Shown here one piece after another: positions 3,361 through 27,258 of a stretch of 43,154 bases of DNA (within the stretch, counting starts at the first letter, position 1; every line of letters begins with the position of its first letter). The stretch is from IMG/VR virus record IMGVR_UViG_3300023184_002205, positions 1 to 43,154 of that record. One strand, given 5' to 3'. The position numbers and the translations under genes were made by a program. The notes below the pieces were generated by a model that was not told where the DNA came from, did no database searches, and was given only the letters and a program-made list of their open reading frames with translations. Origin of the DNA: a virus.

Positions 3361-3362
3361 TG

Positions 3363-8598: not shown

Positions 8599-9990
8599 CT
8601 ATTTGCTGACGCGGAAACTTACTGTGCCTTTAACTGGATTACTTGCGCTACCTTTGCTTTCTACAGTCACAACGCCGTCAACCTTAGCTGGCCATAACAC
8701 ATAGGTTTCTAAGGTTCCCAATTTAGTGCCTTGTGTATAAATCTGCACGAAATTCTCGCTAAGAACTTCTAATACACAGGCTTGGAAGTTCTTGATAGCA
8801 CCTGCATTTACGATACGCATAACTTCTTTAATAGTTACATAATGTAGGATTCCGCCTGCTGTGGTTTCTTCTGCTAATTTGCGTTTGAATACAAAGCTGT
8901 CAACAAACTTCTGCATCTTAGCTGGTAATGGTTTACCTTCTTTACGGCTAGCATTAACGGCGGTCACTGTGGCGTTGATATCCCACGGTAGCATCTTAAT
9001 AAATTTATTATCTATAGCATCAGGATATCGTTGTGCTATCCAATTCATCAAATAGAATGGTTGTTCTATAGCACCTGTTTTTTGACACAACAAGATAAAG
9101 TCCACGGCATCTTTGTATTGACGACGTTTCTTAAGTTCATCTGGTATCTTAAGTCCGCTGATTGCAGGAGCCGCGCCGCCTGCTGAACCTTTTGAACTTA
9201 GGTACAAGGTATGCCCGGTATCACTGTCTTGTATAGCAAAACTGTCTGCTAACGGTGTGTTGCTTTTCTTAGGAAAATACAACATACTCGTACCAAGATC
9301 GTTACCAATAAATTTTAAAAATTGTTCTCGTTTAGGAAAATCTGCTGTGCCTTTATACATGGCCAGTATACCCAAGTATTCTCCAGCATAGTCTACCAAA
9401 GCACGCATCTGTGGGCTTGTGAGCCCTTCAGGAACTTTAGGATCATGTCCTTTGTTGATTTGTTCAGCGCAACTGATAATCGCTTGCCCATAAGTGCCTA
9501 AGGCATTTAATTGTTCGCTTGTGGTAATTTTTTTATATAGATCTTTAACACGGAAGGCACCTGCTTGCTGTAATTCTTTAGCACTTGCTAAATTTACGTC
9601 TTTAACATCACCTGTGTTGAATACTTGCGGTGGTTTAACTGGTAAGCCTTCTTTACCTGCTGTAGCACTTACATCAACGTTTTGACCTTGTGCTACTGTT
9701 GGTGCGCTCTGGCCACCAAACTCGGGTGTTTTCACAAACTTGCTGGTGCTGATAGTTTCTTTACCATCTGCACTGCGGACTAATAGTTGTCCTTTGGCGC
9801 CAGGAGTATGCAGAAACTTCATGATCTCTGGAAGTTGCTTTTTATCTACAACAAAGTCTCTACCATCTACGGTAACAAACGGTTGTCCTGCATTTATCTT
9901 ATTAATAAATGCAAAGATTCTATTACGATATTTGGTGATTTCCCCTGTGGAAAGATTACCTATTTCTGTGATAAATTGATGTGCTCGCAT
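8599..9990 (-). CDS. Large late protein with capsid-targeting-like N-terminus
   Basis: 463 residues, family not recognised. The N-terminus MRAHQFITEIG resembles the MKTYQEFIAE leader of T4 internal proteins, which targets them into the prohead and is cut after Glu by the prohead protease. Residues ~10-70 form a compact alpha/beta part (VTVDGRDFVVDKKQLPEIMKF), 75-140 are Ala/Gly/Pro/Thr-rich and probably flexible, and the rest is a mostly helical/beta domain with a Gly-rich stretch (LSSKGSAGGAAPAISGLK). The C-terminus is beta-like. A late-promoter octamer at 9998-10005 lies only 7 bases before the ATG and no Shine-Dalgarno is visible, so translation is either leaderless or coupled to the upstream stop at 10001. 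Packaged internal protein is the inference. Confidence 0.75.
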   Translation of the reverse strand: MRAHQFITEIGNLSTGEITKYRNRIFAFINKINAGQPFVTVDGRDFVVDKKQLPEIMKFLHTPGAKGQLLVRSADGKETISTSKFVKTPEFGGQSAPTVAQGQNVDVSATAGKEGLPVKPPQVFNTGDVKDVNLASAKELQQAGAFRVKDLYKKITTSEQLNALGTYGQAIISCAEQINKGHDPKVPEGLTSPQMRALVDYAGEYLGILAMYKGTADFPKREQFLKFIGNDLGTSMLYFPKKSNTPLADSFAIQDSDTGHTLYLSSKGSAGGAAPAISGLKIPDELKKRRQYKDAVDFILLCQKTGAIEQPFYLMNWIAQRYPDAIDNKFIKMLPWDINATVTAVNASRKEGKPLPAKMQKFVDSFVFKRKLAEETTAGGILHYVTIKEVMRIVNAGAIKNFQACVLEVLSENFVQIYTQGTKLGTLETYVLWPAKVDGVVTVESKGSASNPVKGTVSFRVSK

Positions 9991-9997
9991 GATACAG

Positions 9998-10005
9998 TAT
10001 TTATC
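9998..10005 (-). promoter_or_regulatory. Late-promoter octamer GATAAATA next to a start codon
   Basis: Minus-strand GATAAATA followed by CTGTATC and then the ATG at 9990. The extended match ATAAATACT fits T4 late promoters. The spacing implies a transcript starting at or beside the start codon. Confidence 0.5.
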
Positions 10006-10753
10006 TGCGTTCTATATCTTCTTCTAAGCAGGCGACACCGTATTGGATTTCAACTATTTTACAGGGCGTATCATAGGGATTGTGCAGTTTATGCCAACAT
10101 TCTGCCTTGATAGTAAACTGATCATGTGGCTTTAGTTTAATGTGGCTCTGCGTGGTCTCATCTTCAAAATCAACATGACAATGTCCTTCTGCTACATGCC
10201 AATGTTCATCACGATCATAGTGACGTTGTGTGGTTAGGCTTTGTCCTGGATTAATAGTAAGTTCTTTAACTTTTGTGCCTGGTGTTTCATGTAAGACACG
10301 ATAGTAGCCCCACGGGCGATTTGTCTTAGGAGCCTTCCATTCTTCCAGTATCCACGAGCTTGAGTTCTTCTTGTTCTCTCCGCCGACACCAAATTCAAAT
10401 ATGACATCGGGCTCTGACATTTCCGGAATATTATCTTTAGTTCGGTCGCCGCCATTGGCAAAGATAATTTCGCTGTTAGGATACATGGTCTTAACATTAC
10501 GTATGGCTTCTATAGCATGATCTTCTGTATCATTGAACAAGATGCAGTGATCCACCATCTTAAGATTTTCAATGATCTGCACACGTTCATAGCTGGGCAT
10601 GAATTCACGACCTTTTTTGCGACGTAGCCAACTGTCACTGTTTACTCCAACTACTAATATGTCACCGAGGCGCTTGGCCGCACGGAAATATTCGATGTGT
10701 CCTGAGTGTAAGGGATCAAATCCGCCCGTGCATAGAACCACTCTATTTACCAT
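10001..10753 (-). CDS. Nucleotidyltransferase fused to a mannose-6-phosphate isomerase-type cupin
   Basis: Two-domain protein of 250 residues. Residues 1-135 are a cytidylyltransferase-like domain: TGGFDPLHSGH at 9-19 contains the HxGH nucleotide motif, with NSD and GGDR (101-104) further on; nearest known types are RfaE/HldE C-terminal, TagD and glycerol-3-phosphate cytidylyltransferases. The usual ISSTxx signature is replaced by SSSWILEEW. Residues 144-250 are a cupin like the PMI half of ManC/AlgA: RPWGYYRV, then NPGQSLTTQRHYDRDEHWHVAEG with metal-binding His residues, and HKLHNPYDTPCKIVEIQYG. This pair suggests activation of a sugar phosphate plus isomerisation or epimerisation. It overlaps the methyltransferase stop by 11 bases, so the two are coupled. 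Domain calls are firm; substrate unknown. Confidence 0.85.
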   Translation of the reverse strand: MVNRVVLCTGGFDPLHSGHIEYFRAAKRLGDILVVGVNSDSWLRRKKGREFMPSYERVQIIENLKMVDHCILFNDTEDHAIEAIRNVKTMYPNSEIIFANGGDRTKDNIPEMSEPDVIFEFGVGGENKKNSSSWILEEWKAPKTNRPWGYYRVLHETPGTKVKELTINPGQSLTTQRHYDRDEHWHVAEGHCHVDFEDETTQSHIKLKPHDQFTIKAECWHKLHNPYDTPCKIVEIQYGVACLEEDIERR

Positions 10754-11666
10754 GCTTGTAGCTCTTTCTCGTTGGTGGTGTCGTGCTGATTTTCAAAGGT
10801 TTCAGTAATTTTGTTTCTTTTGTTGCAGTTTTGGCCTGCTGTATTGACTGGGTATCTGCATGAACAGTTTCATTGAATACTCCCTTGACTTCTGGAGTAA
10901 GGCCGGCAGTTCCTGGTGCCGGTTCCCAGTTACTAACGTAATCAATAAAGTAATTTTCTTTATCTAACCATGGCATAACTACTTCTTCTTGCCGCAAGAA
11001 CCCATGCGTGTTTATGCTGGATACTATACTGGGATGTAGTAGATTCTTATCAGCGAGATCATACCAATTAGTCGTTTCAGGGTCCATTACGGGAACATCT
11101 GTTTTATATACTGCCATCTGTATCCACGGATCTTGGAATTTTTTTAGTAGATATGCATCGCGACAGTCAAATCCATTTACTGCTAACATGTAGATTAAAC
11201 TTGTAGGAGTATAATTAAAGTAACATCCGTTATAGGTTCTACTATAGTATCTATTGTATTCAACTCCATTATGTTGGGGGATAGTAATTAACAGCATTCC
11301 GTTAACGGTCATGTAGCTGTTCCACATACGCAGAGTTTTTAATGGATTTGTGCTGTATTGTAGGCTATCATGTGCCCACATCAGATCTATACTTACTGGG
11401 AATAAATTTTCTTTATCATACGTATCACAGATTTTGTTTATGTTTTTTAATGTTGGAACCTGTGATATCTTACCAGGATCTCGATCCACTGCAAATACAT
11501 TGAAGTTGTAAGGTTCTGGTGGGTCTGCATAATTTTCTAAAGTAGCCCACCATTCTGCATCCTCACCTACTCCGCAACCCATGTCAGCTACTGTGCGTAT
11601 GCTTTCTAAAAATGTATCATACTGCTGTATGGTTTCTAATATGTGAGTCGCGTGCCTATTAGCCAA
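10743..11666 (-). CDS. SAM-dependent methyltransferase (class I)
   Basis: 307 residues. The Rossmann SAM site is VADMGCGVGEDAEWW (26-40), followed by an acidic ribose-binding residue in VFAVDRDPG and a motif-IV-like stretch in LMWAHDSLQYSTNP; later LLITIPQHNGVEY fits strand 5. The C-terminal ~60 residues are Thr/Lys/Pro-rich and probably disordered. It overlaps uvsY by 8 bases upstream and the nucleotidyltransferase-cupin gene downstream, so it belongs to the recombination operon in transcription but perhaps to the sugar gene in function. Sugar, protein or small-molecule methylation are all possible. Its by-product SAH is the substrate of the phage SAH hydrolase. Confidence 0.8.
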   Translation of the reverse strand: MANRHATHILETIQQYDTFLESIRTVADMGCGVGEDAEWWATLENYADPPEPYNFNVFAVDRDPGKISQVPTLKNINKICDTYDKENLFPVSIDLMWAHDSLQYSTNPLKTLRMWNSYMTVNGMLLITIPQHNGVEYNRYYSRTYNGCYFNYTPTSLIYMLAVNGFDCRDAYLLKKFQDPWIQMAVYKTDVPVMDPETTNWYDLADKNLLHPSIVSSINTHGFLRQEEVVMPWLDKENYFIDYVSNWEPAPGTAGLTPEVKGVFNETVHADTQSIQQAKTATKETKLLKPLKISTTPPTRKSYKHGK

Positions 11667-12114
11667 TTGATGCGTCCTCCATACCTGCTGTTCTCAAGCG
11701 TGTAACGTGTCCAAGCATGAAGTTCTTGCTTTCAAGTCCTTTCATGATACCTAACCATTTGTTACGTAAGAGTGCTACTTCGTTAATGATAGTTTCAAAG
11801 TCGATGACTTCGTCTTCACCGTCAACATACTTTTCAGCGTCACGGCTGGTCAGTGCTCGAGCATACCCTTCAAGATATTTTTGGAAGTGTTTCTTGCGTA
11901 TTTTTCTTAACTGAATGTTGAGGTAATTAAGAACTGCTTCGATCTCTTGTAGCTGATTGAAACGTCGTTCTGTAATTCCGGGCAGGCCAGCAAGATTCTT
12001 TTCTATGTTGCCATAGACCCCCACTTCCTTACGTGCATCTTCCAGTTCCTTTTCATAGTGTTGAATGAAATCAGGAATCGCGCCTAAACTAGCTACTACA
12101 CGACTATACCACAT
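11659..12114 (-). CDS. uvsY: UvsY recombination mediator
   Basis: 151 residues, close to T4 UvsY (137) in length and character: largely helical, with strongly charged segments and the region KHFQKYLEGYARALTSRDAEKYV (about 85-107), an acidic linker DGEDEVIDFE, then LLRNKWLGIMKGLESKNFMLGH and a C-terminal RTAGMEDASI typical of UvsY in marine T4-like phages. UvsY loads the UvsX recombinase on gp32-coated single-stranded DNA. The gene sits two positions after uvsX, separated by a small acidic protein gene, with one-base stop/start overlap; gp32 lies upstream in the same direction. Position and pattern agree. Confidence 0.85.
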   Translation of the reverse strand: MWYSRVVASLGAIPDFIQHYEKELEDARKEVGVYGNIEKNLAGLPGITERRFNQLQEIEAVLNYLNIQLRKIRKKHFQKYLEGYARALTSRDAEKYVDGEDEVIDFETIINEVALLRNKWLGIMKGLESKNFMLGHVTRLRTAGMEDASIG

Positions 12115-12356
12115 TAGTAGTCATCATCCTCGTCATCATAATCAACTTCTTCGACTTCTTCCTCACCAAGATATTCTGTTAATGCACGTTTAAGATAACT
12201 ATCTGTTCCACCAAAGGCTTTTAGTTCGCGTTCCGTGATGTTTTGGTCAGCGACTACACTGATTACATGATCTGCAGCCGCTTGGCGATCTTTAGGAGCG
12301 ATATACTCTTTACAGGTCATCCAGATTTCACTAAGTGCGTCTAATTCAACATTCAT
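12114..12356 (-). CDS. Small acidic protein between uvsX and uvsY
   Basis: 80 residues. The first ~65 are predicted helical (ITERELKAFGGTDSYLKRALTEYL) and the last ~15 are almost all Asp/Glu/Tyr (EEVEEVDYDDEDDDY). No catalytic motif is visible. It starts on the last base of uvsX and ends on the first base of uvsY, so it is translated with them. Acidic tails of this kind occur on proteins that bind SSB or mimic DNA, for example the gp32 C-terminus, so a regulatory role in recombination is possible. Family unknown to me beyond a similar gene at this place in related phages. Confidence 0.75.
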   Translation of the reverse strand: MNVELDALSEIWMTCKEYIAPKDRQAAADHVISVVADQNITERELKAFGGTDSYLKRALTEYLGEEEVEEVDYDDEDDDY

Positions 12357-13510
12357 TACTCTGTCTCCTCAGTTTTAGATAATGTAACAATCACATCAGG
12401 ATTACTCGCCGGTGCGATCATGCGAGTGATCACCACTGGTTCTTCTTGTAGTGCAGGGGCTTCGGGTGCCGGGCCGCCATCTAAAAGTTTAGCATTAGCT
12501 GAAATGTCTTTCATAACAATGTCTAAACACCCTTCTTCGTTAGATTCCCATGCTTTACGGAACTGTTTAATTTCCTTGCCATCAGCTGATTTATAAGCAA
12601 GACGATTACCATCTTTGCTCAACAATCCTTTACCTTCCATCATATCAGTTAACCCGCTGTATGGGTTCATACCTGTTTCATATGGAATCTTGATCTGCAC
12701 ACTTTCAAATGGTTTAGCATATCTGGTCTTCATGATCTTACATGCGGCACGGATACCTTTAACTTCACTTACCTTGTTGCCATCTTCATCTTCTTTAAGT
12801 TTTAGTTTACGCATAGCAACAACGATTGAACTTGCGTAGATAAAACCTTGACCACCTGAAATCTTATCGTCTGGGTCAAACATATCTTGTGATGCGTATG
12901 TGTGGTTAGTTGCTACCAATCCAACGTTATGACTACCAAACATATTTACACAATTACGCACAAGTGCTGTAAGTGCTTTAGGTTTACGACCCATATCACC
13001 TTTCAAATCACCTGCTTCAAATTGATTAATGTCAGTTGGAGTTAGTAACATACCCAATGAGTCGATAACAAACAATACTTTTGGACAGTCTTCTTTTGGT
13101 AATGTTTTATACTCTTTCATAAACTCATGGATAGTTTTAGCTACATCATCGATCATAGCCACATTAAGTTTCAATAACTTGTCTTCTGATGTGTCTACGC
13201 CAAGCGCATGTAACCATGTTTCATCAAGTGCGTTCTCACTGTCAATCAAGATAACATAGATGCCATCTTTCTGTGCGTTACGGATCAAGTTACCAGAACA
13301 GATAAAACTCTTACCTGCACCACTTTCGCCCGCAAATACTGTTACTTTGCCGAGTGGAACACCTTTGTGGAAGTCACCACTGATCAAGTAGTTAAGTGTA
13401 TAGTTGCCTGTTGAAATCCAGTCTGTAGGATCGTTGAATCCGGTACTAAGCCCATCGATTGACTTAGTGATTGACTTTCTAAATTTTGATATATCAAATG
13501 GTTTTGCCAT
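12356..13510 (-). CDS. uvsX: UvsX, RecA-like recombinase
   Basis: 384 residues, matching T4 UvsX (391). Walker A is GESGAGKS at 61-68, Walker B KVLFVIDS at 144-151, and the L1/L2 DNA-binding region is around NHTYASQDMFDPDDKISGGQGF (about 203-224). The C-terminal ~40 residues are Pro/Glu-rich and flexible. It makes the presynaptic filament on single-stranded DNA for strand exchange and recombination-dependent replication, with UvsY (11659-12114) and gp32 (16660-17670) encoded nearby in the same direction. It starts 2 bases after the stop of the upstream radical SAM gene. Confidence 0.95.
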   Translation of the reverse strand: MAKPFDISKFRKSITKSIDGLSTGFNDPTDWISTGNYTLNYLISGDFHKGVPLGKVTVFAGESGAGKSFICSGNLIRNAQKDGIYVILIDSENALDETWLHALGVDTSEDKLLKLNVAMIDDVAKTIHEFMKEYKTLPKEDCPKVLFVIDSLGMLLTPTDINQFEAGDLKGDMGRKPKALTALVRNCVNMFGSHNVGLVATNHTYASQDMFDPDDKISGGQGFIYASSIVVAMRKLKLKEDEDGNKVSEVKGIRAACKIMKTRYAKPFESVQIKIPYETGMNPYSGLTDMMEGKGLLSKDGNRLAYKSADGKEIKQFRKAWESNEEGCLDIVMKDISANAKLLDGGPAPEAPALQEEPVVITRMIAPASNPDVIVTLSKTEETE

Positions 13511-13512
13511 GA

Positions 13513-14670
13513 TTAATTGCCCTCTATTAAATTGTATAATTCTGGAAATACTACCCTACTATTTAGGTTACGGCGTTGATCTATCTTAGCTATTTCGTCT
13601 AAACAGTGTTTAATATTCTTTTCCATAGGTGTCTTTATATATTGTAACATATTCACAAGACTGTTTTCAAGTAGATAACCTGGTTTTTGATTAATCCACT
13701 CCTGTAATTCAAGCTCTACTGATTGTAGCATACTATTTGGTAAATGTCTAACATTTAAATGGTTTGGTTCTAACAATGGTCCAATAACAAAACTATTGTT
13801 ATGATACCCTAATCCCTGTAGGAATCTAACAGTGTCAAATATTGATCTGTAATTTAACAAGTGGTGCAACATATTAAATGATATCTTATGATTGAGTTTA
13901 GTAATTTGACTGAGATTGTCTAAAAAGTCTCTCCAACTACTTCCGTATCTAACATATTCAAATTCAGCATCCATTTCATCAATGCTCACAGTCCAATGAA
14001 CGTTAGGGAATTCGCAAATTTTCTCAAAAACTCGTGTTTCAGTTTTGCTTAAATTAGTGTTTATCCTAAGATTAACCTGAGGATTTTTTTCTTGTAGTAT
14101 TTCTAATAACTCTAAATTTTCCTTCATTAACAACGGCTCACCACCGGCCATATATACATGTCTAAGTTGCTCTGCATGATCAAATACATATTTCTTCATG
14201 TTTTGAAAATGAAATCGAGGCACTTCTTGGAATTTTACATTTAATTCTGTTGCCCATTTACTACTGAATTCGGGACTACAATACACACAGGCAAAATTGC
14301 AGGTATTATTCCAACGTATATCTATGGTTCGCAAATCAAAAGCGTCAATGCTTTTATATGTGTTAAGATCAACATCTTTAAGTTCTTTTAAATAAAACAC
14401 ACGATCACTAATAATGTCAAAACTATTTTTGCCCTGTTCTAAATCATAACAAACACCACAAGTAGGACCTGGTTTGTTATAGGTCATATTATGTTTTGTT
14501 GTTAGATTAACTTCGCCTTGTAGTATTTCTGTTATACTATTGTCTTTTAAATTACCAATCGGAGTTTGATTGCGTATACAGTTTTTAACTGTTCCATCAA
14601 AGTTATACATAAATCCTGTCCAAGGTATAGGGCAGAAATTCTTATCAGTTAGATATTTTTTATGATCCAC
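13513..14670 (-). CDS. Radical SAM protein with twitch/SPASM-like cysteine domain
   Basis: 385 residues. The radical SAM motif CNFACVYC holds Cys124, Cys128 and Cys131, followed by HVYMAGGEPLL, the GGEP SAM-binding motif. The N-terminus has an extra cysteine set (Cys13 in FCPIPWTGF, Cys31 in VKNCIRN, Cys71 and Cys74 in CGVCYDLEQ), the pattern of an N-terminal twitch domain that can hold an auxiliary 4Fe-4S cluster. Proteins with this arrangement occur in viral and environmental genomes, and their substrates are unknown; classical SPASM/twitch enzymes modify peptides or sugars. It overlaps the SDR gene by 22 bases and lies directly before uvsX. Enzyme class is firm, substrate not known. Confidence 0.88.
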   Translation of the reverse strand: MDHKKYLTDKNFCPIPWTGFMYNFDGTVKNCIRNQTPIGNLKDNSITEILQGEVNLTTKHNMTYNKPGPTCGVCYDLEQGKNSFDIISDRVFYLKELKDVDLNTYKSIDAFDLRTIDIRWNNTCNFACVYCSPEFSSKWATELNVKFQEVPRFHFQNMKKYVFDHAEQLRHVYMAGGEPLLMKENLELLEILQEKNPQVNLRINTNLSKTETRVFEKICEFPNVHWTVSIDEMDAEFEYVRYGSSWRDFLDNLSQITKLNHKISFNMLHHLLNYRSIFDTVRFLQGLGYHNNSFVIGPLLEPNHLNVRHLPNSMLQSVELELQEWINQKPGYLLENSLVNMLQYIKTPMEKNIKHCLDEIAKIDQRRNLNSRVVFPELYNLIEGN

Positions 14671-15140
14671 TCATAAACTCCTTGAGCATAGTGATCTACA
14701 TCTGTATATTCTGGTGGTGATTGACCTGGTTGCGTAGCTATGCTACCTGGTCTGATCATTATCTGTCTGGGCCACATGTTACGTTCTGTCAATAGTTCTT
14801 CTGCCAATTCTAAGGCTTTCTTTTGTATGATATATTCATCCCATTCACGTTTAGGTGGGACTATCAAATCAGTCATCTGTGTGCTGATATTTACTATAGT
14901 TTTCTCTTGCCCTTCCCAGCGACGCCATATTTCAAACAGTAATTCTGTTTGTGCAAATCCTACTTGAGCATTATTAATAAACATATCACAAGGTTCGATC
15001 ATACCTGCTACCTTAGGCAGACTACGAATATTATAGCCATTACGACGACTAAGCCCAATAACTTCATGCCCGTGTGAATGGCACATCTTTGCTAATGCCT
15101 GACCTATACCAGCACTGTGTCCGGTAATTGCTATTTTCAT
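14649..15140 (-). CDS. Compact short-chain dehydrogenase/reductase-like protein
   Basis: 163 residues, much shorter than the usual ~250 of SDR enzymes. All key motifs remain: the NAD(P) motif TGHSAGIG (6-13), NNAQ (about 56-59), a Ser in VNISTQMT, and YIIQKK giving the YxxxK catalytic pair; IRPGSIATQP matches the PG motif after the active site. The missing length lies in loops and helices between strands and at the substrate end, so either a minimal reductase or a decayed but still binding-competent copy is possible. It overlaps both radical SAM neighbours (4 and 22 bases), which argues that it is translated with them and kept intact. Confidence 0.78.
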   Translation of the reverse strand: MKIAITGHSAGIGQALAKMCHSHGHEVIGLSRRNGYNIRSLPKVAGMIEPCDMFINNAQVGFAQTELLFEIWRRWEGQEKTIVNISTQMTDLIVPPKREWDEYIIQKKALELAEELLTERNMWPRQIMIRPGSIATQPGQSPPEYTDVDHYAQGVYEWIIKNI

Positions 15141-16027
15141 GGCATACCTCTTAATCGTTTTTGCTCTTGTATGTATGCCAGACTTTCGGGAGTATCTTTA
15201 TTTTTAACTGCTAATTCTTGTGGATCTGTTAAGTATGCATAACTATGTTCTAAATTATGTATTTTAATAAATTCTAATATGTTTGGTAAATCATCTACGT
15301 TCAAGGCACTTACTGTAGTCCAGGTATTCAGACGCACAGGCATAGACATATACTGTTGTAAATTTTTGTAAAACTTATCCCACGTAATTGGCCAACGTAC
15401 AAAATCATGTACGGGTCCGATACCATCAAGACTAACAGTTACAGTAACATGGATTCCACGATTACATAAGTCCTGTAGTTCTTCTAATACTGTGCTACAG
15501 TTTGTATTAAGTCTGATAGACTTAACATTCTCGGGTAAATTTGCTAAGATATATTTGTAGTTTTTACTGTAGCTTGGTTCCCCACCGTTAATATCTAAAT
15601 GCACTATACGTTCTAAGGGCAGTGACCAAAAACTGTTAGCATTATTGATCTTGATATATTTTTTACTCGTAAGGCCGCCAATTTTCGTGCTGAGTTCTGC
15701 ATTACAAGTTAGGCAAGCACTATTGCATACATTATCCAACACGCCGCCAACTATTAGATAATCTTTGCGTAGGCTTTTAAATGCACGATCTCTATTGATG
15801 CTGTCTAAACGGATACTGGTATTAGACTCTTGTTCTGTAGTCTTACAGCGTTGACATTCAATGGGCCAAGCATCACGTGCCATTTCATCACGTATGTTTT
15901 TTAACCATTCACTGGATTGTAGTTCTTCATATGTATTAAATTTTGGACTGTTGGTCATATGGCCGCAACATCCCACTGAACTATCAGGATTAAAACGAAC
16001 GAAATGATCTAATCTGGGGCAATACAT
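15137..16027 (-). CDS. Second radical SAM/twitch-type protein
   Basis: 296 residues. The cluster motif CNSACLTC gives Cys101, Cys105 and Cys108, followed by HLDINGGEPSYS with the GGEP-like motif and VTVSLDG for strand 4. The N-terminus carries Cys3, Cys20-Cys21, Cys58 and Cys61 (PIECQRCKTTEQE), again a twitch-like set placed before the barrel as in the gene at 13513-14670. The two share layout but little sequence, so they are old paralogues or independent acquisitions. Its start overlaps the sulfotransferase-like gene by 19 bases and its stop overlaps the SDR start. Two radical SAM enzymes in one cluster suggest successive steps on one substrate. Confidence 0.85.
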   Translation of the reverse strand: MYCPRLDHFVRFNPDSSVGCCGHMTNSPKFNTYEELQSSEWLKNIRDEMARDAWPIECQRCKTTEQESNTSIRLDSINRDRAFKSLRKDYLIVGGVLDNVCNSACLTCNAELSTKIGGLTSKKYIKINNANSFWSLPLERIVHLDINGGEPSYSKNYKYILANLPENVKSIRLNTNCSTVLEELQDLCNRGIHVTVTVSLDGIGPVHDFVRWPITWDKFYKNLQQYMSMPVRLNTWTTVSALNVDDLPNILEFIKIHNLEHSYAYLTDPQELAVKNKDTPESLAYIQEQKRLRGMP

Positions 16028-16638
16028 TTTAATTTTTGAAACGCAATAGGATCTTGTTCTTTAATATAATTTAATATTTCAGTAAAACATAATTCTCTAC
16101 CAATTAGTTTAACCAGTAATTGATCTATTCTCAAATACATTTCGTTATGTATATTTGTAGATAATTCAAAAATTTGATCTGATGTTAAAATTTTATCTTC
16201 TGGCGGGTTACTTTTTTCTGTGGTTAATTTATCTAATTCTTTCATATCATAAAATTTTAATTTTGTGTCTGCATCAATAAATCTACTCAGATTAGTTAAC
16301 CAAGAAATTTGTGGAGCATAGTGCCTATTAAGAAATAGATAATTGTTAGTAAAATAGAAAATTGTATCTATATCTAATGCAGGATTTTCTTTTTTTGTGT
16401 TGAACACAAAGGTATTTACACCAGATATGAATCTTTCCAACGGATCGCGTAAGATCACATCAATGGTTGATGCTCGTTTTATCTGATCATTGATAATGAT
16501 TTTATATGGTCTTATTGGATAATAAGTTAAGCTGGTGCGACCATTTTTGTAAATAGGATAGACGAACCGCTGTGGGTCCGAAAATTCAATGACTTCACAG
16601 CGGTTCGGGTAGATTATATCATCTATCCTTGATAACAT
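16009..16638 (-). CDS. Sulfotransferase-like protein
   Basis: 209 residues. IYKNGRTSLTYY (29-40) resembles the 5'-phosphosulfate loop (KxGxTS) of PAPS-dependent sulfotransferases, and VILRDPLERFISGV (61-74) matches the 3'-phosphate motif RxPxxRxxSG. The spacing between the motifs (~30 residues) is short but within the range of family-2-like bacterial members. No membrane segment is seen. It would move a sulfo group from PAPS to a sugar, lipid or peptide. It starts 22 bases after gp32 stops, and opens a run of four overlapping genes that ends at uvsX. Motif match is good, acceptor unknown. Confidence 0.72.
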   Translation of the reverse strand: MLSRIDDIIYPNRCEVIEFSDPQRFVYPIYKNGRTSLTYYPIRPYKIIINDQIKRASTIDVILRDPLERFISGVNTFVFNTKKENPALDIDTIFYFTNNYLFLNRHYAPQISWLTNLSRFIDADTKLKFYDMKELDKLTTEKSNPPEDKILTSDQIFELSTNIHNEMYLRIDQLLVKLIGRELCFTEILNYIKEQDPIAFQKLKCIAPD

Positions 16639-16659
16639 CGAAATGACAACCCCTTGTTA

Positions 16660-17670: not shown

Positions 17671-17726
17671 GTTGTTTCTCCTTAAGTTGGTCTTAAAATA
17701 TGCCTAAACGTATTAGTCATATAAAC

Positions 17727-17755
17727 ATAATACGCTAATATTATTTATGCCGCAA
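17727..17755 (-). promoter_or_regulatory. Composite early/late promoter of gp32
   Basis: A sigma70-like pair, TTGCGG (17750-17755) and TATTAT (17727-17732) with a 17-base spacer, encloses a late-type octamer CATAAATA (17742-17749) in its spacer. Transcripts would have a ~50-70 base leader with AAGGAG before the ATG at 17670. T4 gene 32 is likewise expressed through several classes of promoter. Confidence 0.5.
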
Positions 17756-17784
17756 GAGATATTTTCAAAATATTTTTGCCAAAA

Positions 17785-17808
17785 CAAAAGGGCCGTTAAG
17801 CCCTTTTG
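17785..17808 (-). terminator. Rho-independent terminator
   Basis: Perfect stem CAAAAGGGC/GCCCTTTTG with a 6-base loop. Read on the minus strand it is followed by TTTTGG. It lies 21 bases past the stop of the 730-residue protein gene (17829-20021) and ahead of the gp32 promoter, so it separates the terminase-side operon from gp32. Confidence 0.85.
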
Positions 17809-17828
17809 GTATAACCTATTGTTTTGTA

Positions 17829-20021
17829 TTATTTTAAGCCTGCTAATTTAAGTATGTCTTCTTTCATATCCATTGGTAATGGTGGATTTAATTTTGGTTG
17901 CAGTGGTGGAGTAGGACCTCCAGTAATTGTAGCTTTAAGTTTATGCCATAATTGAGTAATTGGTCCCGGTGTTTCTGATATTGGTTTTAGTTCTGTAAAA
18001 TGTATTACTGTTGTCGTACCATTATCTAAATCAACTACTAAACTGTTCTTAAATTTTGTTTGATCAGCTACTTGCGATACTGTGCCTTTATTACCTTCTG
18101 CCGGAATATAAAATGTATGCCCTACAAATGATTGCAGTTTGTCTGACACTTGGTCTTCTGTTATTGTGGATTCACATACGCACTGTTCTGCTGTATGATC
18201 ACACGCATCGCAGTAATCTAATTTTTTCTTAAATGCTTCTTCAAGTTCTGAATCCTGTGCTTCGGGATATTCTACACCAACTTCGTTGTAGACTTCTCGT
18301 ACCATAGCACTAATATCACTTGAGCCTAATTCTTCCATTGGTGCATGGAATGATGCTACGTCGGCTGATGCATTCATTACACCTTCTGGGCCTGCTTTCT
18401 TAAGTAATTCACTGTGTTCGCCAATGTTGTTTAGGATTCTACGGATGATCGCTGATTGTATAGATTCAATATTTGCTAACAAGTCGTCTCGGTCTTCTTC
18501 TGCTTCATTTACATTGTCTTGATCAAATTCTTTTTTAGTTATGAAATGATTTTCATCACAGCAACCCATCTTATCATCGCGTGGGTCACCGCAATAAACA
18601 CACACCTGTTCATTGTCGTCTATGTCTCTTTCTTCATATACTATGCCATCTATGCCACTGTCACCTGAGCCATAAGTATTACCTTCGTCTATGTCACCAC
18701 CTTCGCTGTCTGGTGCTTCCGGAACATCACTATCACCGATAGCATCTAATATCGCCTGATACATCTGTGGATTAACTTCTCTCAAGCGATCCATCACTGT
18801 GTCGCGTGCATCTGCTTCAGGATCCACATCTGCCAGTTCGCCTAAGCGATCAAACAGTTGATCGTCACCAAAAACGTTGTATAAGATATCTGTAGCATTC
18901 ATAGCATCAACGCCCACAGGTAATTCTTTGCCTAATATGTCAATGAGCTTTTGTTTATCTTCTTCAGTTTGTGGTAATGCCCACGCACCTTCTGATATAG
19001 CTGTAGCCCAATTTTCAAACTGTTCTGTGAATTTATTTTCTTTTTTCATATTGTATGCCTTATGCACCAAAGGTAGTGCATCTTCCATTTTTTCATTAAA
19101 CACACGTTTTACAAAGCGTTCTTTAATTTCGTTCAGATCAACATCGTCCTCTGGAACATAACTGGTTGATGTATGCACAAACTGTTCTTTGCAGGCCGTA
19201 TAGCCTTTTTTACCACTCATACGTTGTAGAGTATTCTTTAATAGTTTATGGTATTCGAATGCCGCTTCAACCATGGTTTTAGTTTCTTCATCTTCGAACA
19301 TGCGATGGCGGACATTGTTTAAGAATGGTTTTAATTTACCACATTCTTCTGCCATTTCTGCAATATGTTTCCCTAAATCATCGTGCGGTGTACCACCAGC
19401 TGATATATGGCGTGCCATGGCGCGACTTGCTGTTAGGCTCTTGAAAGGCATCTTAAAGCGTTCGCCTTCGTGATTTTCTACGTAAACTGAATTAATGTTA
19501 TGCGCTCTGTGTCTGCGTGTAGTATCATCTTCGATTGGTTTAGTGTGGCGAACGATAATACGTGCAGGGCCAAACTTTTCATAACTGCTTTTGCGAGTGC
19601 CATATAATTTGCTTTCAGCAACAACTTCGTCTTTGTCGTAGGTGCTGTCTGCTTTGCTTTGTTGTTGGATATCACGATGCTTGAGTGTGCTACGTGTTAT
19701 ATCTCTGGGTTCAAAACTTAATAAATTGCGACGAGCAAATTCGCGTAATTCATGCAGGAAATCATACCAATCTCGTTTGTGTTCTTCATCGAGATCTTTG
19801 CTGATATTCTTGCTGTAGTAAACCTTTAAGCTGGTTTCGTCAATGAGGCTCATGGTAATATTACCATGTGCGTGTCCATCAACTACATAGTCAAAATTGA
19901 AAAAACGTGCCTTTTCTGGATCGCTCGTGGCTTTGGCTTTTTCATCACCTAAGCTGACATCCTCAAATCTGTCACGGATTTTTTCAAATAGACCTTCTGC
20001 GATTTTATCAATTTCTCTCAT
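17829..20021 (-). CDS. Large conserved phage protein of unknown function, capsid-targeting-like start
   Basis: 730 residues. The N-terminus MREIDKIAEG fits the [I/L]-x-E|G prohead-protease pattern. Residues ~40-125 form a compact alpha/beta region (ITMSLIDETSLKVYYSKNI, then RDWYDFLHELREFARRNLLSFEPRDITRS split over 84-112) that I recall as a conserved domain of T4-like phages of marine and fresh water. The middle is helical. Two cysteine clusters look metal-binding: Cys474/477/487/488 and Cys604/607/614/616 (CDACDHTAEQCVCES). The rest is acidic and probably disordered, ending DILKLAGLK, a motif shared with neighbours. It follows the large terminase gene by stop/promoter overlap and has its own late octamer 5 bases before the ATG. 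Internal head protein is the best guess. Confidence 0.75.
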   Translation of the reverse strand: MREIDKIAEGLFEKIRDRFEDVSLGDEKAKATSDPEKARFFNFDYVVDGHAHGNITMSLIDETSLKVYYSKNISKDLDEEHKRDWYDFLHELREFARRNLLSFEPRDITRSTLKHRDIQQQSKADSTYDKDEVVAESKLYGTRKSSYEKFGPARIIVRHTKPIEDDTTRRHRAHNINSVYVENHEGERFKMPFKSLTASRAMARHISAGGTPHDDLGKHIAEMAEECGKLKPFLNNVRHRMFEDEETKTMVEAAFEYHKLLKNTLQRMSGKKGYTACKEQFVHTSTSYVPEDDVDLNEIKERFVKRVFNEKMEDALPLVHKAYNMKKENKFTEQFENWATAISEGAWALPQTEEDKQKLIDILGKELPVGVDAMNATDILYNVFGDDQLFDRLGELADVDPEADARDTVMDRLREVNPQMYQAILDAIGDSDVPEAPDSEGGDIDEGNTYGSGDSGIDGIVYEERDIDDNEQVCVYCGDPRDDKMGCCDENHFITKKEFDQDNVNEAEEDRDDLLANIESIQSAIIRRILNNIGEHSELLKKAGPEGVMNASADVASFHAPMEELGSSDISAMVREVYNEVGVEYPEAQDSELEEAFKKKLDYCDACDHTAEQCVCESTITEDQVSDKLQSFVGHTFYIPAEGNKGTVSQVADQTKFKNSLVVDLDNGTTTVIHFTELKPISETPGPITQLWHKLKATITGGPTPPLQPKLNPPLPMDMKEDILKLAGLK

Positions 20022-20026
20022 GTAAG

Positions 20027-20034
20027 TATTTATC
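20027..20034 (-). promoter_or_regulatory. Late-promoter octamer GATAAATA next to a start codon
   Basis: Minus-strand GATAAATA followed by CTTAC and then the ATG at 20021. It overlaps the terminase stop codon. With transcription starting 6-7 bases after the octamer, the message would begin at the start codon. Confidence 0.5.
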
Positions 20035-21602: not shown

Positions 21603-21638
21603 ACTAATACTTATGCTGAATTTATTTGGGTGTTACAA

Positions 21639-21866
21639 TTACCAGGGTTTTTCGCCGGTCATGTAAGGAAGTGAGAACCAAAGTTTGAACCACTCTGGAG
21701 TGCCAGGTTGTATATCGTGTTCTTTTTGGTATTGTATTTTTTCATTAGCTGTAACGCTCATGTTACTGCCTTCTGTGCTAACCGTGCCTTCACCTTTATA
21801 TTCCTGTAGGCGGCCAATGTTTTGCGTAATACCTGCTAACTGCTTGATTTGATCTAAATCATCCAT
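21639..21866 (-). CDS. Small protein upstream of the large terminase gene
   Basis: 75 residues from the ATG at 21866; a longer in-frame start at 21914 would overlap the upstream gene by 47 bases and is rejected. It begins MDDLDQIKQLAGITQN, another copy of the D/L-xx-I-xx-LAG motif found in its neighbours, then a polar linker, and ends with the aromatic TPEWFKLWFSLPYMTGEKPW. A small protein with this end is usual next to gp17 in related phages as I recall. It may be a head-internal or packaging-linked peptide. The function is unknown. Confidence 0.7.
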   Translation of the reverse strand: MDDLDQIKQLAGITQNIGRLQEYKGEGTVSTEGSNMSVTANEKIQYQKEHDIQPGTPEWFKLWFSLPYMTGEKPW

Positions 21867-21867
21867 A

Positions 21868-22263
21868 CTATTTTGATTTACGTTTGTTTTTAGGTTGTAT
21901 GCGACCACGATCACGCATTGGACTTACTTTGTGGGTGTCCTCTGGTTCACGACTCTTGTGATCTTTTTCTGTTTCGTAGTATTCGCTATCTACAGTCTTA
22001 AACGCAGATTTCATCATCTTATGTTCAGCTTCTGTATAAGGACGTGCTACATTGTATTTTTCAACCCAACTTGACTGTGGCATGTCTACTGCATCTTCTG
22101 ATACCCCGTCTGCCATACCTGCAGCCATCATTACGCGATTTAGGTTATAACCACGATCATACCCACCTTGGTCACGGAACTGCCATTCACCGGTATCAGC
22201 ACGGGTCGTGCCATCGGGCTTTTTACCGTCGTAACCTTCTGTTATAATTTCATTAATTTTCAT
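21868..22263 (-). CDS. Conserved virion-associated protein with capsid-targeting-like start
   Basis: 131 residues. MKINEIITEG at the start matches the [L/I]-x-E|G prohead-protease site at the same position as in T4 internal proteins. The core GYDRGYNLNRVMMAAGMADG, followed by SWVEKYNVARPYTEAEHKMM, is a domain I recall from many large tailed phages, always as a short protein of unknown function; it ends DTHKVSPMRDRG and a Lys-rich tail. The start overlaps nothing; its ATG is 3 bases after the stop of the next gene upstream. Basic C-terminus and N-terminal motif suit a DNA-associated protein packed in the head. This is inference. Confidence 0.78.
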   Translation of the reverse strand: MKINEIITEGYDGKKPDGTTRADTGEWQFRDQGGYDRGYNLNRVMMAAGMADGVSEDAVDMPQSSWVEKYNVARPYTEAEHKMMKSAFKTVDSEYYETEKDHKSREPEDTHKVSPMRDRGRIQPKNKRKSK

Positions 22264-22266
22264 TGT

Positions 22267-22758
22267 TTACCACTTACGGCATGACCAATAGCGTGCTTTG
22301 GTTCTTGGACCTGGATTTGCGCAGTTATGGCGAGCACGGAATGATTTACGACGTGCTGGATTTGATTTCTTGATGCGCATGTTAGGATCACCAAAATTTA
22401 CTTTTTTGATGTTGCCAGTTGAAGGATCTTTAACATAAACCTTAAATTTCTTAACATCACCACGCATAGGCTTACCAAGAGGTACTTTGCGACCGTGATA
22501 CTCTGCTTCGTCCAATTGTTCATCTTCGTTAAACCACATTTCACCGTAGGCTTCATAAAATTCATCACCGTGATAGGTTTCTTCAAGTTGTTCTCTTGCA
22601 TAGTCTTGTGATTTTTCGTCAGCAGCTTCTTCTGCGGCTTTACGATCCTTAGCTACTTCTTCTTCTGAAGTATTTAGATATGCGGCTAAATCTTTGTTAG
22701 ACATAGCACTAACTGGTTCATGTGAAGCTGATTCTTTTAGGATCTCATTAATTTTCAT
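22267..22758 (-). CDS. Basic-tailed phage protein with capsid-targeting-like start
   Basis: 163 residues from the ATG at 22758 (MKINEILKES); the longer start at 22788 is less likely because this ATG gives the same leader as its neighbour at 22263. The first half is acidic and helical. The second half is a basic domain, EAEYHGRKVPLGKPMRGDVK (about 90-109), then KKVNFGDPNMRIKK, RRKSFRARHNCANPGPRTKA and ending RYWSCRKW, known to me as a widespread phage domain of unknown role with conserved Cys and Trp residues that could bind metal or nucleic acid. The stop of the upstream gene overlaps its start by 11 bases. L-K-E|S fits a T4-type cleavage site. Confidence 0.78.
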   Translation of the reverse strand: MKINEILKESASHEPVSAMSNKDLAAYLNTSEEEVAKDRKAAEEAADEKSQDYAREQLEETYHGDEFYEAYGEMWFNEDEQLDEAEYHGRKVPLGKPMRGDVKKFKVYVKDPSTGNIKKVNFGDPNMRIKKSNPARRKSFRARHNCANPGPRTKARYWSCRKW

Positions 22759-23074
22759 AATTGTCGTCCTCTTCATTGCCGCTATCAATTAGCATACTGC
22801 GTAGGCTGGCAATGCTACCTGGTTGGCGGCGATCATCTATAAAACTTTCTAAGTGTGGTGCAAGGTAGCTACGGATTTGTCCTGCGAATGGTCCCGGAAG
22901 ATCACGACCAAAGCGTGCTAGATCGTTAGCGATACCCACGGCTTGATTAAGATGTTCTTCAAGTTCATCTAACATATCGCTAAGATGTGCTGCATCAACA
23001 GCATCTTCTTGAACAACAGGATTACCTGCTTCAATGCTGTCCATCATTTCAATAAATTCACGTAGCTCTTTCAT
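22748..23074 (-). CDS. Small acidic helical protein of unknown function
   Basis: 108 residues, acidic and mostly helical (HLSDMLDELEEHLNQAVGIANDLA), with LPGPFAGQIRSYLAPHLESFI in the middle. The start MKELREFIEMMDSIE is similar to the leaders of its neighbours but lacks a clean Glu-Gly/Ser junction. It begins 1 base after the stop of the 1181-residue gene and overlaps the next start, so it is part of the same translation-coupled set. I do not recognise a family. Confidence 0.7.
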   Translation of the reverse strand: MKELREFIEMMDSIEAGNPVVQEDAVDAAHLSDMLDELEEHLNQAVGIANDLARFGRDLPGPFAGQIRSYLAPHLESFIDDRRQPGSIASLRSMLIDSGNEEDDNYEN

Positions 23075-23075
23075 A

Positions 23076-26000
23076 TTAGGCCTTTACGTCGTTAATCATC
23101 GTTTCGTATGCTTTCCAAAGTGCTTCTTCTTTAACTGCCATTGGATTGTCACCCGGATATTCTTTCTTGAATTGTTTCTTAGCACGATTCAAGTCCGCAC
23201 CAGCTGGGATAGCTGCATCTGTTCCTGCTACTTCTTCACGTGGTGTATTAGTATATTCAATATCACGTTCCTTAGGACCTTCTTCTGCAACCACTTCTTC
23301 AGCTACTGCTGGTTGTGCTTGGATAGCAACTACCGGCATACCACTTAGTTTGCGGATTAGATTTACTACATCTTCTTCACCGTTAGCACTTACGTTAATG
23401 TTGATATCTTCTTTTACTGTGTATTTTTTACCGTCCACTTCAAACTCCTTTTCACCGGCTGCTTTAGCTTTGGCTAATGCGCCCGAGAACTCGTTACCTT
23501 CTGATGCTACTTCTTCTTCAAGATCACTGGTATCTTTGAATTTCTTACCGTCTAATTCAAATTCGTCACCTTTAGCAGTAGCAGCCAATTTACCAGTAAA
23601 TGCGTTGCCTTCTGTTTCAATTGATTCATCTTTGATAGGAGTAGTGTCTACACCTGCGGCTGCCAAAAACATTTCACGTTTGAAACGTGAATTTTGTTGC
23701 TTAAATATGTCAGCATGATGCATAGCTAATTCTGTACGTTTAGCCATATCTGGAATAGCCTTTAATAAGTCAGCTACCATGCGGAAGTCTTTGCGTGTTG
23801 CGGCTTCGTTAATTGCTGCTTCGTCAATCATGCAACCTGCACCTTCATCTGTGTGTGTTAATGGACTTGCTGAATCACCTGGCACCATTGGGTTAAGGGA
23901 TTCTGTGCATTCACAGCTTTCACAACCACAGCTTTCACATTTGGCTTCCATCTTTGGTGGTAGGCCTGCTAATTTAGCGATCTCATCTAATTCTTGTTGT
24001 GCATCTAATAATGGTTCTTCGCTGACAAATGAATTCATTGGTGCACCACATTCTGCCATTTCTTTTTGTTTGCTTTGGCAGAAATGATTATATGATGTCG
24101 CTGTGTCGCTGATGAAATCTTCATCGTGATGGCATAACCAACTAGCTGCCTTTGGTGTCATTTTTAATTCAATCAATTCATCATATACTGCTTTTACAAA
24201 TGCTTCTGAATTGCAATCTAAGTGCGGTTGTTCGTCACATAATACTCGAGCTACTGTTTCATATGTGTATTCACTGCTTTCGTGATTGCGACTTTCTTCT
24301 AACTTACCAGCTTTCTTTGCTTTCCATGCTGTAGCATAAGCAATACCTTTTTCTTTAGGTGTTAGCTTGCCGTCTTTGGCATAACCTTTCTTGATATGTT
24401 TAACCATGCGTTCTGCTTTGGCACCTGGAGGTGCTACTTCTGCTACTTGTGAAGCTTTCTTGTGACCAAGTGCTACCGCAAGATCTTTGCCGCTAATACC
24501 ATGTGGTTTGGCTAGCTCATCATAGTCAGCTGGTGTAAATTGTTTTTTGCTGGTATAACCTTTCTTATCAGCGAGACGCATTAGGTCATAATGAATGTCT
24601 TTCATCTTACCTTCATCTAGCTCTTCACCTTCGTTAGCACGTAATTTCTTAAGCACAGCACCAGCTACTTTCTCGCCACGTTCTTTACTACCATAACGCT
24701 CACCTGCTGACTTAGCGATCTTAGCAAACGCTTTGCCTGGTTTGCCAATGTCTTTACCTGCACGTGCAGTTTTGGCTGAGTAACTAACTTCGTCCATCTG
24801 TGTTTCATCCATCTTGTCGTGTTTAGCACGGATTAATGCCATTTTTTCTTTGCTTGCACCTTCACGTCCTGCTTGCTGTAGGGCTTTCATACCTTCTTTA
24901 CCGTATTTCTTTTTACCTAAGTATGCTTGTAGACCACTTTCATCTAAATCTTTTTCTTCATCATCTTTTTGTGCGGCGCCACCATAAGCACGACCTTTAA
25001 CAAAACGGCTTGATGATTTGCTATCATAATCACCTTTCTCAGCACGCTCATCTTCTTGTTTGTCTTTTAGTGCTTGTAGGCGTTTGCGTTTTTCCACAGC
25101 AGATTTGTCTATCTTAGCAGGTTCAGCATCTTTGGCATCTTTGGCCGCTGATTTCATAGGCTCTTCAGTGTCACCATCTTTGTCAAGATCTAAGAAGTCT
25201 GGTTTTGCAGCTTCTTTAAAGTTGGCAAATCGCTCCATTAGGCTTTCTGCTATTTTTTCTAAGTTTTTCATGCTCTTGGTTCCTAAAGTTTCTTCTAATT
25301 GGCTGTCGCTACGTTGATAGGGGTGAGGCTGAGTAGCTGCATACGCCTGATCAAATTCTGGTGCAGTGGGATCTAGTCTGGGATCATAACGTGGATCCTC
25401 TGCTGGTGCTGGTTCTAATTTAAACTGTCCTCTATTGACATCACGCATGCGTGTTTTAAATCTTGGATTCTTTTTAGCGTATTCCGGGAATTTTTGTATC
25501 AGTTTTTTTACTTTTGGTGTCATTAGTAACTGAACTACATTGTCATAGTTAGACATTACAGTTTCAATGCGTGCCAGTTTTCGATCTGGATTTTGATCTG
25601 TAGTTAAATCTGTTAACAGCCCGTAGAGTTGATAATCATAAAGTGTAAGTGGCTTTCCACCAAAATCTAAAGTGATTTTCTCTTGTGCCTGTTGAAAGGC
25701 TTTAAGTGCTGAATTGTAATTAATTAGCCCTAAATCTGGATCACCTTCTTTGTATTCTCTTAGCATTTTTAATTTGGTCTCTTTGCTTTCTGCTGCTTGT
25801 CTGGACACTTGTGTAGCTTTCATCAACGGATCATTTGCGGCTTGTCTTGATATTTGGCTGACTTTTCCTGTTCCTGGTTTTGATGCACCCTTGGGCGGCG
25901 TACCATCTGATTGCCCAACATCTGTTTGTGTATCTGTTGGTGTGCTAACAGCTTGAGCAGTTTTGTCTTTGCCTGGAAATTGATAAATGTCAGCAGTTGG

Positions 26001-26621
26001 TTGTTGAGGTGCTGTTGTTGCTGTCGCTGTAGCCTGTTGTTGTGGTTCTTGTGGTATAGCCGCTACTTGTGCATCATGGTCTTTTTCAATTTGCTGTGCT
26101 GCCAGTGCTGCCTGTTGATCTTGTGCTGTGATCTGTCCTGCAGCTACTTTGTCATTTAATGCACGGAATCTTTGATCTGTAGCAGTCATTACTTTCTGCA
26201 TAGCGTCTTGATTAGCCTGTGTTTTAGCTAACATCTTCTGGGTCTGCTCGATCTTTTGTCGATCAGCGATGTCAGCTTGTTTCTCTTGTTCTAATTCATT
26301 TTCTAATTTACTGGTGTAACTTACGATAGCTTCAAAATCATTGAGTTCAGGTTTGATAAACTTAGCTTTAGTAGCTAATCTTGCTACATCAGGGTCTGCG
26401 CTTCTTGTAAGATCAGAATCAGGAATAACCGCTTCTGGTTCTTTGCGTTTAGTTTTAGCTTCTTTAAATCCCTGATAGCGTTCTTCAAGTTGTGTAACAG
26501 CAGACATGATATCTCCGCGAGGATCTATGCTCTCATAGATTGGCTCAGCGGTCGACACAGGATTCTCTTTAGGTCTTAGACCATCAAGTTTTCCTAAGAT
26601 ATCATATATGTTGTTGCTCAT
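23076..26621 (-). CDS. Giant modular protein, probably head-internal
   Basis: 1181 residues, low in hydrophobics and largely disordered, built from short modules I recall scattered in other large phages. In order: LEERYQGFKEA (45-55); a Gln/Ala-rich region (~130-260); a helical block (~290-400); at Met451 a fresh leader MKNLEKIAESLMERFANFKEA split by its own [I]-x-E|S site; an EF-hand-like DLDKDGDTEE (478-487); Lys/Arg/Glu-rich modules (HIKKGYAKDGKLTPKEKGIA); LDEIAKLAGL (~877-886) with CESCGCESCECTES (~893-906); RTELAMHHADIFKQQNSRFK; and two ~36-residue repeats with EGNxFxGxLA...EFExDGKK (~1004 and ~1040). It lies among other putative internal proteins. Fusion of two proteins is likely. Confidence 0.75.
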   Translation of the reverse strand: MSNNIYDILGKLDGLRPKENPVSTAEPIYESIDPRGDIMSAVTQLEERYQGFKEAKTKRKEPEAVIPDSDLTRSADPDVARLATKAKFIKPELNDFEAIVSYTSKLENELEQEKQADIADRQKIEQTQKMLAKTQANQDAMQKVMTATDQRFRALNDKVAAGQITAQDQQAALAAQQIEKDHDAQVAAIPQEPQQQATATATTAPQQPTADIYQFPGKDKTAQAVSTPTDTQTDVGQSDGTPPKGASKPGTGKVSQISRQAANDPLMKATQVSRQAAESKETKLKMLREYKEGDPDLGLINYNSALKAFQQAQEKITLDFGGKPLTLYDYQLYGLLTDLTTDQNPDRKLARIETVMSNYDNVVQLLMTPKVKKLIQKFPEYAKKNPRFKTRMRDVNRGQFKLEPAPAEDPRYDPRLDPTAPEFDQAYAATQPHPYQRSDSQLEETLGTKSMKNLEKIAESLMERFANFKEAAKPDFLDLDKDGDTEEPMKSAAKDAKDAEPAKIDKSAVEKRKRLQALKDKQEDERAEKGDYDSKSSSRFVKGRAYGGAAQKDDEEKDLDESGLQAYLGKKKYGKEGMKALQQAGREGASKEKMALIRAKHDKMDETQMDEVSYSAKTARAGKDIGKPGKAFAKIAKSAGERYGSKERGEKVAGAVLKKLRANEGEELDEGKMKDIHYDLMRLADKKGYTSKKQFTPADYDELAKPHGISGKDLAVALGHKKASQVAEVAPPGAKAERMVKHIKKGYAKDGKLTPKEKGIAYATAWKAKKAGKLEESRNHESSEYTYETVARVLCDEQPHLDCNSEAFVKAVYDELIELKMTPKAASWLCHHDEDFISDTATSYNHFCQSKQKEMAECGAPMNSFVSEEPLLDAQQELDEIAKLAGLPPKMEAKCESCGCESCECTESLNPMVPGDSASPLTHTDEGAGCMIDEAAINEAATRKDFRMVADLLKAIPDMAKRTELAMHHADIFKQQNSRFKREMFLAAAGVDTTPIKDESIETEGNAFTGKLAATAKGDEFELDGKKFKDTSDLEEEVASEGNEFSGALAKAKAAGEKEFEVDGKKYTVKEDININVSANGEEDVVNLIRKLSGMPVVAIQAQPAVAEEVVAEEGPKERDIEYTNTPREEVAGTDAAIPAGADLNRAKKQFKKEYPGDNPMAVKEEALWKAYETMINDVKA

Positions 26622-26631
26622 CTTATAGCCT

Positions 26632-27258
26632 TTATTTTGGACTTGGTATTTTATTCTTGGTGCTACCTACTGGACTTTTATCTCCAGTTGGAATTTGTTG
26701 TAGTGTTTTACCAAATGCTGGGTCTTTTTCGCCGCCAACAGTTTCATCATCGCCTGCAATTTCAAACTTTGATGGAGTGTTCAATTCTTTAAGAATCGTA
26801 CCTGCTTCGCTGTATGCTTTGCTTGCAGCTTTTTGATCAGCTGTGGCTTCTGGAAGTGGTTTTATTAATTCTGCATCGCCTTGTTTAAATTCTTTAAGCT
26901 CACTTTCGCCATCTACATTCCAGCGCCAAATTTCTTCTGGATTATATTTAGGAACTACAACTACCTGAGCAAGGCTGCAACCTAAACGTTCTGCTACGAT
27001 CACACGTAATTGTGCGTCATTTACTGGATATTTTAATACAGCGTCCATTAAAAATACTTCGCAGTTTGGAATGCTTGGGAAGTCAATATCGTTGGCTTTG
27101 ATTGGTAGGCTTTTTGGAGCACTTACGCTTTCTACTGCGTATTTGGTAAGGCCAACTTTAAGACCATCGAGTTTGTCTTTAGGGTCGCAGTTGGCGATCT
27201 TAATACGGAACTCGTAGGTTTTTTGAACTTCTGAAAGGTATTGTAAAAAGTTTTTCAT
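26632..27258 (-). CDS. Late protein with capsid-targeting-like start
   Basis: 208 residues. MKNFLQYLSE resembles the leaders of the neighbours, although Val follows the Glu. Residues 10-110 look like a compact alpha/beta domain (KTYEFRIKIANCDPKDKLDGLK split over 13-34, then VFLMDAVLKYPVNDAQLRVI and VVVPKYNPEE). The remainder is polar with repeated GDxxxGG/GDKSPVG segments and is probably flexible. It has a late promoter (GATAAATA, 27280-27287) 21 bases upstream with AGGAT as ribosome binding site, so it can be made without the small terminase gene upstream. Conserved in related phages as I recall, but without an assigned function. Confidence 0.72.
   Translation of the reverse strand: MKNFLQYLSEVQKTYEFRIKIANCDPKDKLDGLKVGLTKYAVESVSAPKSLPIKANDIDFPSIPNCEVFLMDAVLKYPVNDAQLRVIVAERLGCSLAQVVVVPKYNPEEIWRWNVDGESELKEFKQGDAELIKPLPEATADQKAASKAYSEAGTILKELNTPSKFEIAGDDETVGGEKDPAFGKTLQQIPTGDKSPVGSTKNKIPSPK

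Follow-up and report, generated by a model that had tools for sequence, protein, structure and literature searches.

The internal proteins of bacteriophage T4 start with MKTYQEFIAE, the sequence as given in the first-pass annotation of the DNA analysed here, and the combination of such a capsid targeting sequence (CTS) with the gp21 protease is, as a kind, already known from that phage. The T4 CTS is carried by IPI to IPIII and by Alt and is removed by gp21 (Mullaney and Black 1996, according to the reviews PMC9026906 and PMC5694885); it measures 10-20 residues (PMC5694885). The first 10 residues of IPIII alone suffice for entry into the head, residues 4 and 7 being the main determinants of targeting and residues 8 and 10 those of processing; an Asp at position 10 blocks cutting and leaves targeting intact (PMC9026906). 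Numbered from the cut, positions 4, 7, 8 and 10 are designated P7, P4, P3 and P1 hereafter.

The DNA under study, called the window, is a 43,154-base IMG/VR virus fragment in which T4-type late genes (sheath, tube, neck and TerL) are present and the head cluster is missing, with portal, MCP, gp22 and gp21 all absent. The relatives of its TerL are found in environmental contigs. Among cultured phages the nearest TerL, at 56% identity, belongs to Pseudomonas phage PA5oct and its kin; next come Phosso, Atu_ph07 and jumbo phages such as GAP32, CBB and PBECO4. The source virus is a T4-related large (jumbo) phage. The window also contains a metabolic block (1290-5806, minus strand, noted as - below) with S-adenosylhomocysteine hydrolase, a radical SAM protein, a fatty acid desaturase and an additional membrane protein without Pfam match (2581-3360). 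Two further radical SAM proteins adjoin uvsX (13513-14670 and 15137-16027, -); a SPASM domain is present in one of them. The contig end (2-1168, -) encodes a porin-like protein with a signal peptide, which has no match in Pfam or PHROG and is read as a putative porin.

The first-pass annotation had reported six occurrences of a short leader, shared by proteins of unrelated bodies and likened to the T4 CTS. Each of the six strings was found where stated, and BLASTP between the bodies returned no significant match. The likeness to the T4 CTS was upheld for the genes starting at 9990, 22263, 22758 and 27258, and was abandoned for the gene starting at 20021 and for codon 451 of a 1181-aa protein, both rejected because their P4 and P7 residues are wrong and the Glu is not conserved. 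With one residue fewer than the T4 leader, MKINEIITE, MKINEILKE and MRAHQFITE also fit the T4 determinants. The T4-type targeting (P7, P4) and processing (P3, P1) residues are found in 22263, 22758 and 27258 and, with a weak P7 (Ala), in 9990. The frequency of such leaders at gene starts was compared with that at internal Met codons in the window and in the records of seven relatives. The motif of the first-pass annotation occurs at 11 of 1108 gene starts and at 2 of 5122 internal Met (p=3e-7), the motif M[KR]x2-6[LI]xE[AGS], taken from T4 alone, at 14 and 8 respectively (p=2e-6), and the pattern of T4 targeting and processing residues at 19 and 4 (p=2e-11). Control versions of the T4-derived motif, with Glu changed to Asp, changed to Lys or shifted, gave no enrichment at gene starts, and a Glu-to-Gln version was marginal (3 vs 2, p=0.04). 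All twenty residues were also tried at P1 in loci fetched by means of TerL, none being fetched through a leader protein. Glu yielded 101 ORFs over 9 body clusters, followed by Leu (16), Thr (10) and at most 7 for each other residue, counts that are not independent since the ORFs inside one cluster are related.

MKINEIITE|G (22237-22263, -; the bar marks the predicted cut) opens a 131-aa protein (21868-22263) whose family of 45 sequences provides 37 distinct leaders. M1, [KR]2, [IAC]3, [ED]5, [IFVL]6, [IVL]7 and E9 occur without exception in these 37, position 8 varies freely and body identity falls to about 30%. The leader holds the single [LI]xE[AGS] site of the 131-aa protein, for which tblastn against cultured phages returned no match. 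MKINEILKE|S (22732-22758, -) opens a 163-aa protein (22267-22758) with a C-terminal phrog_7595 domain; the ATG start of this gene lies within a longer TTG ORF (22267-22788). The homologues keep the C-terminal domain and bear either leader type, for example MKTFKDYLTE, MKIRDIVTE or MKTLHDYISE. The domain itself (the last 85 aa or so, ...RKSFRARHNCANPGPRTKARYWSCRKW) was found too in small Pelagibacter and Roseobacter phages and is therefore not specific to T4-like phages.

A third leader, MKNFLQYLSE (27229-27258, -), stands at the start of a 208-aa protein (26632-27258); its F4, Y7, L8 and E10 align with Y4, F7, I8 and E10 of T4. Among the 33 distinct leaders of this family, F4 is kept in 31, Y or H at position 7 in all 33, L or I at position 8 in 31 and E10 in 28, five leaders being without Glu; K2 is nearly invariant. 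The AF2 model displays a helix at residues 4-10, a linker and a ferredoxin-like domain from residue 15. A function was sought from this ferredoxin-like/S6-like fold, which is too generic for an assignment. A late-promoter-like GATAAATA lies upstream of the gene (27280-27287, -).

The fourth leader, MRAHQFITE|I (9964-9990, -) of a 463-aa protein (8599-9990), has Ala at P7 and Ile at P1' and fits the T4 determinants poorly. A homologue of 86% identity carries MRANEFLIE|A in its place, and in most of the distant homologues an [LIV]xE site is retained within some 20 residues. Comparison of the gene between loci L147 and L151 gives 34 differences in the 60 upstream bases, 10 in the 30 leader bases and 4 in the 60 bases after the leader. 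The opposite pattern is obtained between the window and L145, with 12, 2 and 19 differences in the 60 upstream bases, the leader and the next 60 bases. These patterns place the exchange boundary directly after the leader, and the comparison shows that leader and late promoter have been swapped as a module against the same body. Both leader versions retain the late box GATAAATA, located at 9998-10005 (-) in the window. TAAATA boxes are found 292 times within 50 bases upstream of genes, against 76 in shuffles (about fourfold). Within the window such boxes stand before virion-type genes, before the ORF at 8100-8567 and before the genes that start at 9990, 20021 and 27258. The gene of the 463-aa protein has a late box of its own, though its neighbours mostly look non-structural. 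Immediately 3' of it, a 155-aa orphan (8100-8567, -) has its own late box (TATAAATAG) and is likely another late protein. Searches with the 463-aa protein in Pfam, PADLOC and PDB sequences, and by tblastn in cultured phages, returned no match. A DcpS_C identity suggested by one homologue was discarded as a weak match, and the AF2 model (pLDDT 59) was unusable, its fold matches bearing no informative names.

The rejected MREIDKIAE (19995-20021, -), with Lys at P4 and Glu at P7, is the helix start of a folded domain in a 730-aa protein (17829-20021), the N-terminal helix running on into a conserved domain (ALFDKIRSRF...LGDE). Its Glu is not conserved among homologues: the more distant ones have MSKEIESVAAALFDK or MTNVDNIAQALFDK, with the Glu missing, and MSKEIESVAAALFDKIRSRF or MTNVDNIAQALFDKIR are found as N-terminal variants among relatives. 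MKNLEKIAE (25245-25271, -), at codon 451 of the 1181-aa protein (23076-26621, -), is internal, has Lys at P4 and Asn at P7 and is missing from homologues. The family of this modular, fast-changing protein ranges from about 500 to 1181 aa, and its 1181-aa member contains an EF-hand-like DLDKDGDTEEPM segment.

A Peptidase_S77 search of the 43-kb window, a fragment lacking head genes, gave no match. The 201-kb relative G001 lacks the same portal, MCP, gp22 and gp21 genes, and the absence of S77 is therefore ascribed to truncation. Peptidase_S77 was found above the Pfam cut-off in 7 of 20 relatives' records and, where examined, its gene lies in the head cluster between the core protein and gp22. 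The head cluster of PA5oct (EST35_0149 to 0154) has the same gene order, EST35_0152 being the S77 protease. Proteins marked 'ESI-MS/MS' in the PA5oct record were taken as its virion proteins. They include EST35_0150, which starts MKINDIITE|GYY and is located between portal and core protein, at the gp67 position, and the product of a GTG-started gene at 157529 (MKIKDILVE|SDE). Also marked are EST35_0202, the homologue of the 27258 protein, which starts MKSFRDYYDAS without Glu, EST35_0203, located where the window has the 1181-aa gene, and EST35_0206, the homologue of the 20021 protein. With our own gene calling as the source of the 351 non-MS proteins, the strict leader motif is found in 2 of 93 MS proteins against 1 of 351, which is not significant (p=0.11). 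A loosened motif, chosen post hoc, is found in 6 of 93 against 4 of 351 (p=0.007). These mass spectrometry notes support indirectly the virion membership of the leader proteins.

The explanation which we consider probable is that the products of 9990, 22263, 22758 and 27258 begin with a 9-10-residue T4-CTS-like propeptide that would dock through P7 and P4 and be removed by the S77 protease, freeing the body in the head. The leader genes would be expressed late and the leader would dock onto the assembling prohead core by its hydrophobic P7 and P4 residues, late expression and docking residues both being supported by the sequences. The shell would assemble after docking, and a gp21-type S77 protease would then cut after [LIV]-x-E, a site for which the sequences likewise speak. 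The freed body would remain in the head, as the PA5oct notes suggest, and by analogy to the T4 internal proteins it may exit with the DNA. The parts of this scheme do not have the same strength. The sequences show the leaders, the conservation of their determinants, their spread over unrelated bodies and the exchange of a module of promoter and leader, and the relatives provide the protease gene and, in PA5oct, the virion notes on homologous, syntenic or leader-bearing proteins. Packaging of the leader-bearing proteins is likely and cleavage after the Glu is probable; docking on the core would come first, and the freed bodies would remain inside the virion or may be ejected.

The T4 proteins gp67 and gp68 are transient core proteins of assembly, which are broken down and exit the head, and the leader could mark proteins of this sort rather than retained or injected cargo. 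The leader genes 22263, 22758 and 27258 adjoin TerL amid head and packaging genes, and in PA5oct the protein bearing the same leader occupies the gp67 position in the gap between portal and core protein, both of which agree with a transient role. That same protein is nevertheless marked by mass spectrometry in the virion, although traces of core proteins can persist, the bodies within a family differ widely, as those of cargo would, and 9990 lies away from the head genes; we regard a transient role as unlikely. The leaders might also be docking peptides that usually stay uncut, as the T4 Asp10 variant is targeted without being processed (PMC9026906). The docking positions of the 208-aa family are indeed steadier than its Glu (28 of 33), and EST35_0202, marked by mass spectrometry, retains F4 and Y7 and loses the Glu. 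In the 131-aa family all 37 distinct leaders have the Glu, and no other residue approaches it in the P1 scan, which makes targeting without processing rather improbable as the general rule. Chance resemblance of N-terminal amphipathic helices, to which the choice of the motif after the sequences were seen and the loss of two of its six instances lend some colour, is very improbable given the test of a motif derived from T4 against internal Met and with swapped residues, and the conservation of the leader across divergent families.

A second motif, IxxLAGL (hereafter the LAG motif), is common to the C-termini of the scaffold protein gp22 and of the 20021 protein, to the 1181-aa protein and to a 75-aa ORF. 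In the 730-aa protein it forms the C-terminal MKEDILKLAGLK (17832-17867, -), kept in most of the family. The 1181-aa protein contains it as ELDEIAKLAGL (23961-23993, -), with a second copy, NLIRKLSGM, at 23337-23363 (-). The 75-aa ORF (21639-21866, -), between the 131-aa gene and TerL, starts MDDLDQIKQLAGI, and relative G001 has at the same location a 75-aa ORF starting MSELDEIKLLAGV. At gp22 C-termini the motif is found in G002, G003, G005, G006, G008, G011 and PA5oct, the corresponding ends being NEISQLSGINKKR in BF and KELDVLSGINKK in 121Q, and the Phosso protein following TerL ends ARLRKLAGI. The pattern [DEN]x0-2[hydrophobic]xxL[AS]G[LIVM] has 40 occurrences where residue shuffles give 7.9, and three permuted controls gave 11, 13 and 6 against 7.7, 6.6 and 4.3. 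The gp22 C-terminus (IDIKRLAGLK), the C-terminal end of the 20021 family, two sites within the 1181-aa family and the small ORF near TerL account for the bulk of the excess. We tentatively propose, as an idea still on the doubtful side, that this amphipathic motif serves as a second address tag by which the products of 20021, the 1181-aa gene and the 75-aa ORF would dock where the gp22 tail docks; as a scaffold-tail docking peptide it is a possible lead.

A head-loading tag readable from sequence would provide a list of candidate proteins packed, and perhaps injected, by T4-like jumbo phages, among which there may be anti-defence proteins. T4 IPI, which carries such a tag, inhibits a restriction enzyme. 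The leaders, perhaps together with a scaffold-tail tag, could also be tried as short tags that direct foreign proteins into the heads of large phages. In the open-access literature, of which our coverage is incomplete, no CTS was found reported for PA5oct-like or 121Q-like jumbo phages, nor any description of a 9-residue leader in two flavours, of the new body families, of an exchange of leaders or of the possible second tag.

Among the known systems, phiKZ and SPN3US resemble the present one in that inner head proteins are cleaved after Glu by a protease related to T4 gp21; they differ by propeptides that are mostly far longer, several exceeding 100 residues, and by an AxE or SxE cleavage motif (PMC5694885), and they belong to a separate phage lineage. 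The N-terminal signal of P1 DarB likewise routes its protein, and also a reporter, into the head, but requires more than 9 and fewer than 30 residues, and the Dar N-termini have no consensus by BLAST (PMC9024508). With respect to the T4 CTS, the window leaders differ in being mostly of 9 residues instead of 10 and in having two flavours, MKIxEII and MRAxEF, their bodies are not T4 internal proteins and their cleavage is a prediction. They share with it a basic residue 2, hydrophobic P7 and P4, [LI] at P3 and Glu at P1, the presence of one leader on unrelated bodies, variable bodies after a conserved leader and, in the relatives of the window, an S77 protease.
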